This document shows positions 3 to 34,820 of a DNA stretch of 34,858 bases, piece after piece (within the stretch, counting starts at the first letter, position 1; every line of letters starts with the position of its first letter). The position numbers were made by a program, and so were the translations under genes. Location of the stretch: positions 1 through 34,858 of the forward strand of contig CAIQQH010000128.1 in NCBI GenBank assembly GCA_903873915.1, written 5' to 3'. The DNA comes from an uncultured Flavobacteriia bacterium (GTDB lineage: Bacteria; Bacteroidota; Bacteroidia; Flavobacteriales_D; Crocinitomicaceae). Under the pieces are notes generated by a model. It ran no database searches, was not told the DNA's origin, and saw only the letters and a program-made list of their open reading frames with translations.

Positions 3-488
3 AATATTGCTAAAGCAAAAAAGGAATCAAAAGAATTGCACCTTTCTGAGGAGAAAACAAACCATCGTGTGGCATCAGCAAAAATGGAGAGCTCCTACAT
101 AGGTCATCTTGGACATTTCATTGAGCCTGCCATTCAACCGCTTGGATACGATTGGAAAATTGGGATTTCACTCATTACATCATTTGCGGCACGCGAGGTC
201 TTCGTTGGCTCTTTATCTACCATTTACGCGGTGAATGAAACGGACGATGTCAACAGGCGACTTATCGATAAAATGCGGGCGGAGAAACGCGCTGATGGCA
301 CAAAAGTTTATACTCTTGCCGCTGGGGCGTCACTCATGGTGTTTTATGTCTTCGCGATGCAGTGCATGGCAACACTTGCGGTCGTTAAGCGAGAAACAAA
401 CAGTTGGAAATGGCCCTTAATTCAATTAGGATTTATGGGAGCTTTGGCCTACTTTGGCGCTATGATCACATTTCATCTCCTTTCCTGA
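3..488 (+). CDS. feoB: Ferrous iron transport protein B, C-terminal part (5'-truncated by window edge)
   Basis: This is the last ~161 residues of FeoB, the inner-membrane Fe2+ transporter whose N-terminal GTPase domain lies outside the window. The reading frame is open from base 3 and stops with TGA at 486-488. The visible part matches the C-terminal membrane domain. It has the stretch GHFIEPAIQPLGYDW, then ITSFAAREVFVGSLSTIYAV, which is the conserved Gate/Core segment of the family. Two hydrophobic segments follow, around YVFAMQCMATLAVVKR and the C-terminal end. The family is usually about 700 residues, so most of the gene is missing. Its stop overlaps the ATG of the next small gene (TGATG), implying translational coupling. 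A TTG at 36 is not the true start, because the frame is open upstream of it. Recognition is by motif memory and is strong. Confidence 0.93.
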   Translation, partial: NIAKAKKESKELHLSEEKTNHRVASAKMESSYIGHLGHFIEPAIQPLGYDWKIGISLITSFAAREVFVGSLSTIYAVNETDDVNRRLIDKMRAEKRADGTKVYTLAAGASLMVFYVFAMQCMATLAVVKRETNSWKWPLIQLGFMGALAYFGAMITFHLLS

Positions 489-635: not shown

Positions 636-1313
636 CTAATCTTCACTCTTTAAATTCAATTTTTTCTTCTTTTTCTTCTTCCAATTCCTTGGGTTATCGA
701 TAATGTATTTTTCGATTCGAATATAATCTCTTTGATTTCTAATGATATGCTCGTAATAATTTCTCTGAAAGATTTTATTGTAAGATGGGGCGAATAGCGA
801 TTCGCCCGTTCTAGGAGATGGGGCGAATAGCGATTCGGGAGAGGGGGCGGCTGGGGCGAATAGCGATTCGCCCGTTCTAGGAGAGGGGGTGAATTGCGAT
901 TCGCCCGATCTAGAGGAATTTAGAAAAAGATTTATCTTTTTTGTGCTGGCGCCTTTAAATCCGCGGATTATTGCGCCAATGGTGTGTGAAGGGCTTTTTG
1001 GATTCGAATGAATCCATTCATCGTTATCTTTTTTTTCGACTTGAGTGGTAATGGTTACAATCATATGCATGTGGTCAGGCATAATGATAAATTCTCCCAA
1101 ACTGACATTAGGTCGTAATTGAATGGTATTTAGCCATTCTTCTTCGACGATTCTTCCAACGGAACTTAAGATCATTTTTCCGTCTTCAATTTTGCCAAAT
1201 AAGTGTTTTCGATTTTGAGTAACGATGGTAATAAAATAACTCCCCTTTTGAGAATAATCGTAGTTTTTTAGACGAATAGATCGTCTATTCGGTAGATTTG
1301 AATTCGTTGGCAT
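636..1313 (-). CDS. REP-associated tyrosine transposase (RAYT, IS200/Y1-like HUH family)
   Basis: This is a 225-residue Y1 transposase of the RAYT/TnpA_REP type, which in this family acts on single-stranded REP hairpins. The start of the fold is typical (RRSIRLKNYDYSQKGSYFIT). The HUH metal-binding pair is H81-M-H83 in MPDHMHMIV. The likely nucleophile is Y203 in KYIIDNP, preceded by the family block FQRNYYEHIIR. Between the HUH domain and the tyrosine helix, residues ~134-177 form an 11-residue repeat in four copies (GES-x-F-x-P-S). It is encoded by 33-bp DNA repeats containing REP-like hairpins, listed separately. A Lys-rich tail (WKKKKKKKL) ends the protein. It is intact with an ATG start and converges on the feo genes. 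Proteins of the family are usually 150-230 residues, so the repeat accounts for extra length. Confidence 0.9.
   Translation of the reverse strand: MPTNSNLPNRRSIRLKNYDYSQKGSYFITIVTQNRKHLFGKIEDGKMILSSVGRIVEEEWLNTIQLRPNVSLGEFIIMPDHMHMIVTITTQVEKKDNDEWIHSNPKSPSHTIGAIIRGFKGASTKKINLFLNSSRSGESQFTPSPRTGESLFAPAAPSPESLFAPSPRTGESLFAPSYNKIFQRNYYEHIIRNQRDYIRIEKYIIDNPRNWKKKKKKKLNLKSED
787..906. repeat. Four 33-bp tandem repeats with REP-like hairpins inside the transposase gene
   Basis: Four copies start at 788, 821, 854 and 887, exactly 33 bp (11 codons) apart. Copies 1 and 3 contain a perfect inverted repeat: arm GGGCGAAT, loop AGCG, arm ATTCGCCC (788-807 and 854-873). Copy 4 (887-906) keeps the 8-bp stem with one G·T wobble and loop TGCG. 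Copy 2 (821-840) has lost the outer right arm (ATTCGGGA) but keeps the inner 5 bp. The hairpin form is what RAYT enzymes recognise in other bacteria. Because the period is a multiple of three, the array stays in frame with the gene. Confidence 0.9.
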
Positions 1314-1365: not shown

Positions 1366-2790
1366 TTAATGCCCTCCCCCTTCAGTTGCGTCAAAGGAAA
1401 TCCCTCGTTTCTTCAGGATTCTACCTACATACACGGCAAAGAAAGTAAGGTAAGCAAAGCATACCACCCCTACCCAGTAGGAGTGTTGAATTCCGAGCAT
1501 CTTTTCATCCGACAATGCACCTTGGATGAGAGAAATCACCCCACCACCCATGATCATCATGATCAACAAGCTCGAGGCCGTATTTGTTTTCTCACCCAAT
1601 CCAGCAATGCCCAAGGTAAAGATGCATGGCCAAAGTGTACTGCAGAACAAGCCCACAGAGATAAAGGCAAAGACACTTGTCATTCCACTGGAGAAAATAC
1701 CGATAATCAGCGCAAGGATTCCTAAGCTTGAATAAATGATAATTTGACGGGCTGGTTTCCCTTCACTCACGGCATCAGCCACAGCGAGAATCACCACGAT
1801 TAACAAATAAGGATAGAGCGATTGAATGGAATGACCTCCAATTACATTGGCAAAAGCAAACACGCCGAAAGCGGCAAATGGAAGTAAAAGACTCAACTTC
1901 AATTTTGTTGCTTCCTTCAAGTCAAATGCACCAGCAGCGGATGTCCAACGACCAATCATTAAACTTGCCCAGAACAAGGAAACATATGGGGCTACAGCAC
2001 TTTCTGGCGTACCCAACTTTTGCTTCATGAATTCTGGTAGGTTACTCGCAGTAGAAACTTCCACACCTACATATACGAAAATAGCGATCATGCCCAATAC
2101 CACTTGCGGATAGCGCAAGGTTTCCAGGATCCCGCCACCATTGATTTGGGTTTCACCACCGATGCGGTCGGGAACAGAAGAAAATTTAAAGAAGACAGCA
2201 GCTACTAAGAACGCCGCACCAAGCACGAGGTAGGGAATCTGCACCGCTTCAAGGTTTAATCCTGCATCTGGATTGGATATTCCCCCAAAAATGGCAAACG
2301 ACACGATGACAGGCCCGATGGTCGTGCCCACATTGTTGATTCCTCCGGCTAGAGACAAGCGCATGTTTCCTTTCGAGGGATCACCCATTTGAATGGCAAG
2401 CGGATTTGCTGCAATTTGCTGAAGTGAGAATCCAAGTCCGACAGTAAACAAGCCTCCAATCAATAAAGGAAAAGATGCATTGTTGGATGCTGGAATGAAC
2501 AGAAGTGTACCCACCGCTGAGATAATTAAGCCTAGGGCAAGACCATTGCGGTAACCGATTAGATTTAAGATATCGCGTTTTAACAAGCCTGAAATGACAA
2601 AGTATAAAATTGATCCGACCGTATACGCCACATAAAAAGCAAATGAAATCATCTGCGATTGAAGTTGGCTGAGGTCTAAGGCCTTTTTGAAGACTGGAAT
2701 TAAGATGTCATTGCTCGCTGCAACGAAGCCCCAAAAGAAAAAGATAACAATGAGCGTAACAAGTGAGCTACTTTTAGTAGGAATTGACAT
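1366..2790 (-). CDS. Sugar MFS transporter, FucP/GluP type
   Basis: This 474-residue inner-membrane protein has about 12 hydrophobic helices and belongs to the fucose permease/glucose-galactose branch of the major facilitator superfamily. The N-terminus IFFFWGFVAASNDILIPVFK matches the family signature, with the WGF...NDIL block of helix 1. GFSLQQIAANPLAIQMG and LAGGINNVGTTIGPV are also typical of the family. Substrate (fucose, glucose, galactose or another sugar, by H+ symport) cannot be told from sequence alone. The gene follows dxs on the same strand after 39 bases and may be cotranscribed with it. The start is the ATG at 2790, directly before a hydrophobic helix. No frameshift or truncation is seen. 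Confidence 0.88.
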   Translation of the reverse strand: MSIPTKSSSLVTLIVIFFFWGFVAASNDILIPVFKKALDLSQLQSQMISFAFYVAYTVGSILYFVISGLLKRDILNLIGYRNGLALGLIISAVGTLLFIPASNNASFPLLIGGLFTVGLGFSLQQIAANPLAIQMGDPSKGNMRLSLAGGINNVGTTIGPVIVSFAIFGGISNPDAGLNLEAVQIPYLVLGAAFLVAAVFFKFSSVPDRIGGETQINGGGILETLRYPQVVLGMIAIFVYVGVEVSTASNLPEFMKQKLGTPESAVAPYVSLFWASLMIGRWTSAAGAFDLKEATKLKLSLLLPFAAFGVFAFANVIGGHSIQSLYPYLLIVVILAVADAVSEGKPARQIIIYSSLGILALIIGIFSSGMTSVFAFISVGLFCSTLWPCIFTLGIAGLGEKTNTASSLLIMMIMGGGVISLIQGALSDEKMLGIQHSYWVGVVCFAYLTFFAVYVGRILKKRGISFDATEGGGH

Positions 2791-20625: not shown

Positions 20626-20882
20626 AGGGTGTTTTTTGTTGGGGTAAAGATAGTAGAAAGGTAGTTGTTAGTGATTAGTAGTTAGTGATTAGTGGCTAGT
20701 AATCGTGGCTTCGAGTATGCTGGCGCACCTTAGCCACCAAATTTGTAATTCCTTCATTCTTAATCCTTCATTCTTAATTTCCATACAAAACTATTTATAT
20801 CGTTTCTAAATTATCCGCAATGACAGTTTTATGACAAAACGAATGCATTGAGTTTGCACTTTTGCACCTAGAAAGAGGGACA
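20626..20882. repeat. Intergenic gap with two 14-bp tandem duplications
   Basis: This 257-bp divergent gap between rsmI and hemA holds two short tandem duplications. One is a 14-bp word GTTAGTGATTAGT(A/G), at 20667-20680 and 20681-20694. It is followed by GGCTAGTAATCG and GGCTTCGAG (near 20706-20714). The other is CCTTCATTCTTAAT, at 20751-20764 and 20765-20778. The hemA promoter should lie between here and 20882. ATTGAGTTTG at 20847-20856 and CACTTTTG at 20857-20864 are weak candidates. No gene is seen. Confidence 0.75.
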
Positions 20883-34109: not shown

Positions 34110-34688
34110 AGATTGGATATTTTTTTTGCGAATGTAATGGAATTAGACAAAAGACCGCTATCGCTTTAGGACAAAAGACACTTCTACGCTCTTTGAGCTT
34201 CGAAGGACGAGGGACGAAGGACTTAAAAAAGTTACGAGTTACTAATGACGAGTTACTAGTTATGGGATTTTTGCTTCGAAGCTCTGAATTTGGTGGGTTC
34301 CGAAGGAAGTCTCGAAGCCGCAATGGACAAAGGACTTCAAAAAGTGACGAGTTACTAGTTACTAGTTATGGGATTTTTGCTTCGAATTTTAAGGCCATTC
34401 GAAGTAACTGGAGCATTCGAAGCTATCGACTAACTCGTAACCATACAGGGCGGAGCCTCCTATTTGCCCCACTCGTAACTCGTAATTCGTAACTATTAAG
34501 GGCGAAGCTTCCTATTTCCACACTCGTAATTCGTAATTCGTAATTCGTAATTCGTAATTGGTAATTCGTAACTATTTATGGCGAAGCCTCCTATTTTACC
34601 CACTTGTAACTCGTAACTCGTAATTAATAACTCGTAACTAAACAGGGCGTAGCCATCAATTTCCTCAACTCGTAACTCGTAACCACTG

Positions 34689-34820
34689 TTGTCCGATAAA
34701 AATTTTCTGCTCTTCTTGAAACCATTGAAATCATTGGTTTTAAGAAGGGGTTTTAAAGTAAGGGGGTGGTTTTTATTTTATGTGATTTAGTCATTTAGTA
34801 TCACTAGTGTCCGATAAAAC
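34689..34820. mobile_element. Possible insertion-sequence end(s): two GTCCGATAAAA copies
   Basis: The 11-mer GTCCGATAAAA occurs near 34691 (context GTTGTCCGATAAAAATTTT) and near 34809 (context AGTGTCCGATAAAACTTTTT), in the same orientation about 118 bases apart. I recall similar T-G-T-C-C-G-A-T termini from Bacteroidota insertion sequences, but no transposase is visible here. The right copy would open an element that lies beyond the window. Confidence 0.3.

Follow-up and report, generated by a model that had tools for sequence, protein, structure and literature searches.

A gene for a RAYT-like protein of 225 aa (positions 636–1,313, minus strand) in the window, the 34,858-nt stretch of DNA from an uncultured Flavobacteriia bacterium analyzed here, carries inside its own reading frame a tandem array of four REP-like hairpin units. 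The array (783–913, minus strand) has a period of 33 bp and encodes a loop that is predicted with low confidence. Regarding its origin and anatomy, we think that the array is probably a REP hairpin of the RAYT lineage that lodged in frame in the αC-β4 loop of the protein and was multiplied head-to-tail. The hairpin would have entered the gene in an ancestor when a RAYT transferred it as a single strand, or through some equivalent event, the αC-β4 loop would tolerate it, and the extra copies may have come from slippage or unequal recombination. The array looks REP-derived because related genera have the same core flanking RAYT genes or in intergenic DNA with a GTAG or GTAC foot. The preliminary description of this DNA had proposed that the enzyme, or a relative, inserted or amplified its own substrate within its gene, and this proposal is largely supported: relatives have this core in extragenic positions too, on both sides of the RAYT gene in two genomes.

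The protein was assigned as a TnpA_REP-like Y1 HUH enzyme using NF047646 (the NCBIfam model of the REP-associated tyrosine transposase), Pfam Y1_Tnp and an AlphaFold2 model. The matches to NF047646 (58 bits, E 9.2e-16) and Y1_Tnp (22.2 bits) lie below the curated cut-offs of 80 and 23, respectively, which are database thresholds and not traits of the RAYT family. Of 14 control genomes, only one had a match above the first of these cut-offs, and the NF047646 match of the window protein is interrupted by the array. The HuH and Y-x-x-x-N-P motifs of RAYT/TnpA_REP proteins (class 2 TnpA_Y1) are present as PDHMH and YIIDNP. The HUH motif (H81-M-H83) maps to 1,065–1,073 and the putative catalytic Tyr203 to 705–707, and the IIRGFK motif (954–971) lies in the helix of residues 112–135 that precedes the array (all minus strand, coordinates computed from residue numbers). 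H81, H83, Y203 and N207 are invariant in alignments of 28 and 47 rows, and a tyrosine occupies the catalytic column in 122 of 122 RAYT rows among the matches listed. The AlphaFold2 model has a mean pLDDT of 80.8 and a confident core; the array falls after helix 112–135 and before strand 187–191, in a loop where the ten-residue blocks of residues 141–180 have mean pLDDT values of 49–59. The top solved structural match was 4er8_A (E 1.1e-6, TM by target 0.54), a RAYT bound to a REP hairpin, and IS200/IS605 TnpA was also among the top matches; a sequence search of solved structures with the window protein returned none at 0.001. The RAYT identity given in the preliminary description is thus supported in the form RAYT-like. 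Apart from the array units, the window contains no perfect palindrome (stem of at least 8, at least 5 G/C per arm) that would flank the gene as in a REPtron, and it offers only 635 bp to the left of the gene. Because no flanking REPs were seen there, we call the protein RAYT-like and place it in no subclass. Outside the loop, NG86 dN/dS was 0.08–0.19 in six of the seven defined pairs and 0.88 in the pair L016/L018 (nine pairs were tried, of which two were undefined through saturation). At residue 182, where the 47-row alignment has the almost invariant W of WQ, the window protein has F, as do L055, L056, L060, L061 and L062. The genome of the window (G000) also encodes a second Y1 HUH protein (L008, 1,501–1,815, contig G000:C10), the motif of which, YIYFQKKHHE, resembles subclass 1.2 in Table 1 of PMC6006769.

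Tandem Repeats Finder delimited the array to 783–913, with 4.0 copies of period 33, 73% matches and no indels, and an independent repeat search gave unit-to-unit spacings of 33, 33 and 33. This confirms the four repeats with an exact 33-bp period inside the coding sequence that had been noted initially, and position and alignment likewise bear out that they are situated after the HUH motif and before the tyrosine. In coding order (all on the minus strand), unit 1 (887–906) has one stem mismatch, the loop CGCA and the foot GATC; unit 2 (854–873) is a perfect hairpin, GGGCGAAT-CGCT-ATTCGCCC, with the foot GAAC; unit 3 (821–840) has three mismatches and has lost the outer stem pairs; and unit 4 (788–807) is a perfect hairpin with the foot GAAC. 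The initial count of at least three units with an 8-bp stem was therefore slightly generous, since two units are perfect and a further one, unit 1, has a mismatch. The array units form the palindromic stem-loop of a REP, and the GT[AG]G 5' foot of REPs is absent from them in the window, GAAC or GATC standing in its place. The pattern GGGCGAAT-N4-ATTCGCCC with up to three mismatches occurred four times in the window (788, 821, 854 and 887), against 0.16 matches expected from dinucleotide shuffles, in which the largest number was 2. Perfect palindromes whose stem is 8 or longer, whose loop does not exceed 8 and whose arms each contain five or more G/C occurred twice in the window, both times as array units. 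Upon folding, the 131-nt coding strand of the array beat all 200 shuffles, both as RNA (z -7.3) and as DNA (z -4.4).

The hairpin was found in the same loop of 11 RAYT-like genes of the window's genus and its sister genus. An alignment of homologues had been suggested as a check on whether the repeat count of the linker varies, and between congeners it does, from 1 to at least 5 units; unit spacing varies as well. Counting decayed units by peptide likeness, there are four units in the window and in G003, three each in G002, G007, G009 and G011, two and a decayed third in G022, two in G005, a single one in G016 and in G034, and at least five on an incomplete RAYT copy in G008. The units of one gene tend to have similar hairpin loops, which vary from gene to gene (CGCT for the most part in the window; TGCT in G011; TGCA in G007; TGCC in G009; TGCT as well as CGCT in G008), as local duplication would give. 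The RAYT matches of L012, L058 (G008) and L068 (G004) run out where their contigs do, either at the array or next to it. Assemblies probably break at the array, and the unit counts may be understated.

The left neighbor of the RAYT gene (3–488, plus strand) we take to be the 3' end of a feoB-like gene, in synteny, and the right neighbor (1,366–2,790, minus strand) is presumably an MFS-type permease gene. In orthologues with flanks, the RAYT gene adjoins one or both of the feoB-like and MFS genes, and dxs lies further out in those stretches that are long enough to include it. The feoB part was present in 13 of 16 further congeners searched, and a RAYT end lay next to it in one of these 13 loci (G004). 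No RAYT match was seen in the other 12 feoB stretches, where the next matched neighbor was the MFS gene in six (L235, L236, L239, L241, L242 and L243) and dxs in four (L234, L237, L238 and L240), and two (L233 and L244) had no matched neighbor. The RAYT gene therefore holds one place in the genus, with some species having it and others not.

Unit 1 keeps its 8-bp stem, G-U pairs allowed, in 9 of 10 full-length genes. With random synonymous codons, weighted as in the ORFs of at least 200 aa of the same stretch, the probability of this stem is 0.008 to 0.05 per gene, and these values are not simply multiplicable because the genes are related. The sole exception is the window's own unit 1, units 2 and 4 of the window being perfect, and the first units of G022 and G005 have G-U pairs instead of broken pairs. 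Wherever two genes share a Gly, Glu or Ala residue in unit 1, they also share its codon. At the four hairpin residues codon identity was 155 of 171, versus 632 of 902 where these amino acids occur at other positions; within the genus this codon test was modest (P 0.023, computed on column means with related rows).

Copies outside the gene were scarce in G000, which is 87.5% complete. Neither an exact hairpin copy outside the RAYT gene nor an extragenic copy with the loop pattern of the array at up to three mismatches was found in this genome, and the genome-wide search suggested in the preliminary description returned, instead of the many extragenic copies of a REP, two intergenic look-alikes only. 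These look-alikes (L003 and L004, on contigs C8 and C32) are one mismatch away from GGGCGAAT-N4-ATTCGCCC, have other loops and lie between convergent genes, the one on C8 adjoining an A-run. They may be plain terminators, and they could also be REP relics. A third match outside the RAYT gene of G000 (L006) was rejected, lying inside a 658-aa ORF. In G016, L052 holds a perfect-stem intergenic hairpin placed like the first G000 look-alike. Near position 1,501 of their own stretches, L003, L004, L048 (G004) and L052 have GGGCGAAT-like stems between convergent genes, with an A-run beside the hairpin in L003, L048 and L052. Since the GGGCGAAT stem is also terminator-like in the genus, the REP reading is weakened for the genus itself. 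The preliminary description had named as evidence against itself a hairpin absent elsewhere in the genome together with homologues encoding the same repeat by codons without palindromes. The outcome is mixed: G000 has no exact copy elsewhere, yet the homologues keep palindromic codons.

The exact hairpin was absent from the viral contigs searched, and GGGCGAATNGCNATTCGCCC at up to three mismatches was matched in 13 of 27 genomes; among the 12 congeners without a RAYT match, 11 had no GGGCGAATNGCNATTCGCCC match and G021 had one at three mismatches. The core CGAATTGCAATTCG occurred at 19 places in 12 of 149 related genomes, and its reversed control at none across the same 149. Nine of the 19 places are in or beside RAYT genes: the core flanks the RAYT gene on both sides in G031 and G051 (one copy in G051 about 0.5 kb upstream), lies in the RAYT linker in G034, G003 and G007, and in G038 occupies the linker as well as a place immediately 3' of the gene. 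Six of the remaining ten are outside ATG ORFs of at least 100 aa (twice in G007 and once each in G005, G022, G088 and G027), and four overlap such ORFs (twice in G034, and in G120 and G140). The foot is GTAG for the copies in G088 and G027 and GTAC-like for those at G031 and G051; the foot is GTAC in G002, G009, G007, G022, G034 and G038. G007 also contains a 52-bp perfect intergenic palindrome (L064, 253–304, G007:C117), in which GGGCGAATTGCAATTCGCCC is nested in GGGGCGTAT...ATACGCCCC, and a degraded form of it is present in G022 (L073).

Hairpins in the linker of RAYTs extend far beyond the genus. The family sample comprised genomes of the order and the best 80 named loci from many phyla, ranked by similarity to the query, and is not a census; 73 of these 80 loci were usable, and 60 of the places matched in the order, short of the full listing, were taken as loci with flanks. 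The motif test was passed by 127 distinct RAYT ORFs, 122 of them non-redundant, and L172, L197, L201, L207, L208, L214 and L228, without an ORF passing it, stand outside all counts. Hairpins were defined as perfect, with a stem of at least 8, a loop of at most 10 and at least 4 G/C per arm. The filter of the shuffle test dropped 13 of the 127 genes and left 109; it was over-strict, losing confirmed loci, and the comparison with flanks was therefore run unfiltered on the 122 non-redundant genes. Among the matches listed, the HUH-to-W linker of the 109 genes held 95 hairpins versus 6.1 in synonymous shuffles, with 8 versus 0.8 in the N part and 1 versus 0.4 in the C part. A linker hairpin was present in 78 of the 122 non-redundant RAYTs from many phyla (109 hairpins; 54 of 73 genes in the multi-phylum set and 24 of 49 in the order, among the matches listed). 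For 36 of these 78 genes, the central 22-mer of the hairpin was present again, with up to three mismatches, in the DNA flanking the gene itself (35 of them within 600 bp), whereas foreign flanks matched in 169 of 9,400 comparisons (1.8%), again among the matches listed. The in-gene hairpin thus often equals the flanking one family-wide, in support of a match between the hairpin and the REP of its RAYT group. By position, 99 hairpins precede the IIRGFK helix (site A) and 10 follow it (site B) among the matches listed, and site B alone is occupied in six of these genes (the window, L204, L056 and L060 in the genus; L093 of G034 and L097 of G038 in the family); G022 and G005, with one-mismatch forms at site B, were tallied as hairpin-free. 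L189, L174 and L171 have hairpins in both loops. On a quick 144-column tree, in which many forks are unsupported, 26 changes are required to account for the presence of the hairpin, and 2 for the site-B label, versus 5.9 when this label is shuffled. The form GTAGGGGCN12GCCCCTAC with any middle occurred in 20 of 22 genomes tested, in 1 to 80 copies, and its reversed control in none of the 22; G156 has three copies within 0.7 kb of one contig, by computed coordinates at the L196 RAYT. The RAYT linker of L128 (G080) contains a 67-nt perfect palindrome with 33-bp arms and a 1-nt center in an open frame, and L110:8,084–9,121 (G097) encodes a RAYT of about 346 aa with 231 residues from HUH to W, mostly LSGDSLLGEPL-type repeats.

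In-gene REPs as such are already published: the main text of Quentin et al. (2018, PMC6006769) describes for subclass 2.4, with Bacteroidetes among its hosts, in-frame REPs inside tnpA_REP, generally between HuH and Y, and a domain of variable length and sequence between β3 and αC in which short DNA repeats are noted. The window hairpin is likewise in frame between HuH and Y, with a foot unlike that of a REP; unlike the β3-αC insert of subclass 2.4, its array lies between αC and β4, where that text lists short inserts in subclasses 2.2 and 2.6. The subclass 2.4 consensus of Table 1 in PMC6006769 (NH[IFV]H, WQ and YIxNNP) reads DHMH, FQ and YIIDNP in the window, WQ being present in some congeners. 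As described in the main text of Di Nocera et al. (2013, PMC3733652), GTAG-tagged REPs are also short palindromes with a tagged foot, some in ORFs and some overlapping RAYT ends; unlike the array in the middle of the window's RAYT gene, the repeats named there are flanking or end-overlapping, or lie in repair and replication genes. Rickettsia palindromic elements (RPE), cited in PMC3733652, resemble the window array in being palindromes inside protein genes. In E. coli, REPs adjoin the TnpA_REP gene according to the main text of PMC8266576, whereas the window hairpins lie inside the gene. The E. coli TnpA_REP (4er8) and IS200/IS605 TnpA share their fold with the window protein. To our knowledge, RPE are not tied to a transposase carrying its own hairpin, and the E. 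coli TnpA_REP gene has no in-gene array. In the main texts of the literature surveyed, we found no description of a direct array in the αC-β4 loop, of a RAYT with exact hairpins found only in its own gene, or of a hairpin-ended RAYT gene fragment.

Whether the hairpin does anything in its present place is where readings that share the origin proposed above part. The hairpin may be kept because the enzyme binds it, as a putative site in cis on either the gene or the mRNA, which is the weakest step of our proposal and one that we consider less likely than not. We give an even chance to the alternative in which a REP landed in a permissive loop and duplicates and decays there without function. 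The low pLDDT of the loop, the imperfection of two of the four window units, the loss of the GTAC foot in the window's subclade and the varying number and spacing of units are consistent with such a neutral passenger, and the main text of PMC6006769 holds that inserts of this kind may have little impact. The retention of nine of ten first-unit stems, including the single-unit genes of G016 and G034, at the low synonymous probabilities given above, argues against it. This argument is weakened by possible outside donors, namely two extra core copies in G034 and the perfect-stem intergenic hairpin in G016.

Two other explanations were considered. Selection might act on the repeated peptide, Gly-Glu-x-x-Phe-Ala-Pro, with the palindrome incidental to it, and genus orthologues do share the reading frame and a similar peptide. 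We regard this as very improbable: synonymous shuffling abolishes most linker hairpins, G038 has this hairpin in the corresponding loop but translates it in another frame, and across the family three frames, with differing peptides, are in use. The phases of GGGC were 42, 34 and 6 among the 82 hairpins holding it (among the matches listed), so no single peptide is kept. The array could instead be an attenuator of mRNA or transcription, possibly derived from a terminator and unrelated to the DNA substrate of the enzyme, in keeping with the strong RNA folding, the G-U pairs seen at unit 1 in G022 and G005 and the similar stems of terminator-like intergenic hairpins in the genus. A generic attenuator leaves unexplained why the core is common to the palindromes that flank RAYTs of other genera, and we consider this explanation quite unlikely.

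One locus suggests that the hairpin-bearing gene may have been mobile. G008 contains at a second locus a 124-bp piece of the 3' part of its RAYT gene, one end of which coincides with the foot of the hairpin (coding strand AGAAC); in the array, this foot comes immediately after CT. The matching site of G011 is uninterrupted, without the 124-bp piece, and G000, the surround of which is more diverged, also lacks the piece. The E. coli TnpA_REP is reported to cleave at CT 5' or 3' of the REP in the main text of PMC8266576. Short matches between donor and target were seen by eye at both junctions (TTCT and CTTG, on the strand shown), and the fragment, a single event with microhomology at each of its ends, is compatible with template switching too; moreover, a chance break near one of several units would not be rare. 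Judged from sequence, enzyme-linked mobility of the G008 fragment is suggestive only, and the earlier idea that the gene is both source and target of its enzyme has in this fragment one suggestive case.

A further-reaching reading, which we deem unlikely, is that the RAYT of this genus has lost its flanking REPs and most or all dispersed ones, and that its recognition hairpin persists mainly in its own frame as a length-variable array under selection at the nucleic-acid level. The enzyme would then be directed mainly at itself, binding its gene or message as a putative autoregulator and occasionally launching hairpin-ended gene pieces as in G008. The two intergenic look-alikes of G000 make this reading somewhat less likely. 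The array bears on how REPs spread and why RAYTs persist as single, vertically inherited genes. As its exact hairpins were found nowhere but in the coding sequence, this RAYT helps to tell apart two commonly conflated ideas, namely that a RAYT is retained for mobilizing REPs and that it is retained for another purpose. The genus offers a natural series, from 1 to at least 5 units together with gene-free congeners at the matching place, for testing the importance of the in-gene hairpin. Elsewhere in the window, Tandem Repeats Finder reported two short 14-bp tandem arrays at 20,662–20,778 and periods of 52 and 66 at 34,201–34,690, a mosaic built from 7-bp units (ACTCGTA/TCGTAAT) in which modules resembling GGGCGAAGCC recur.
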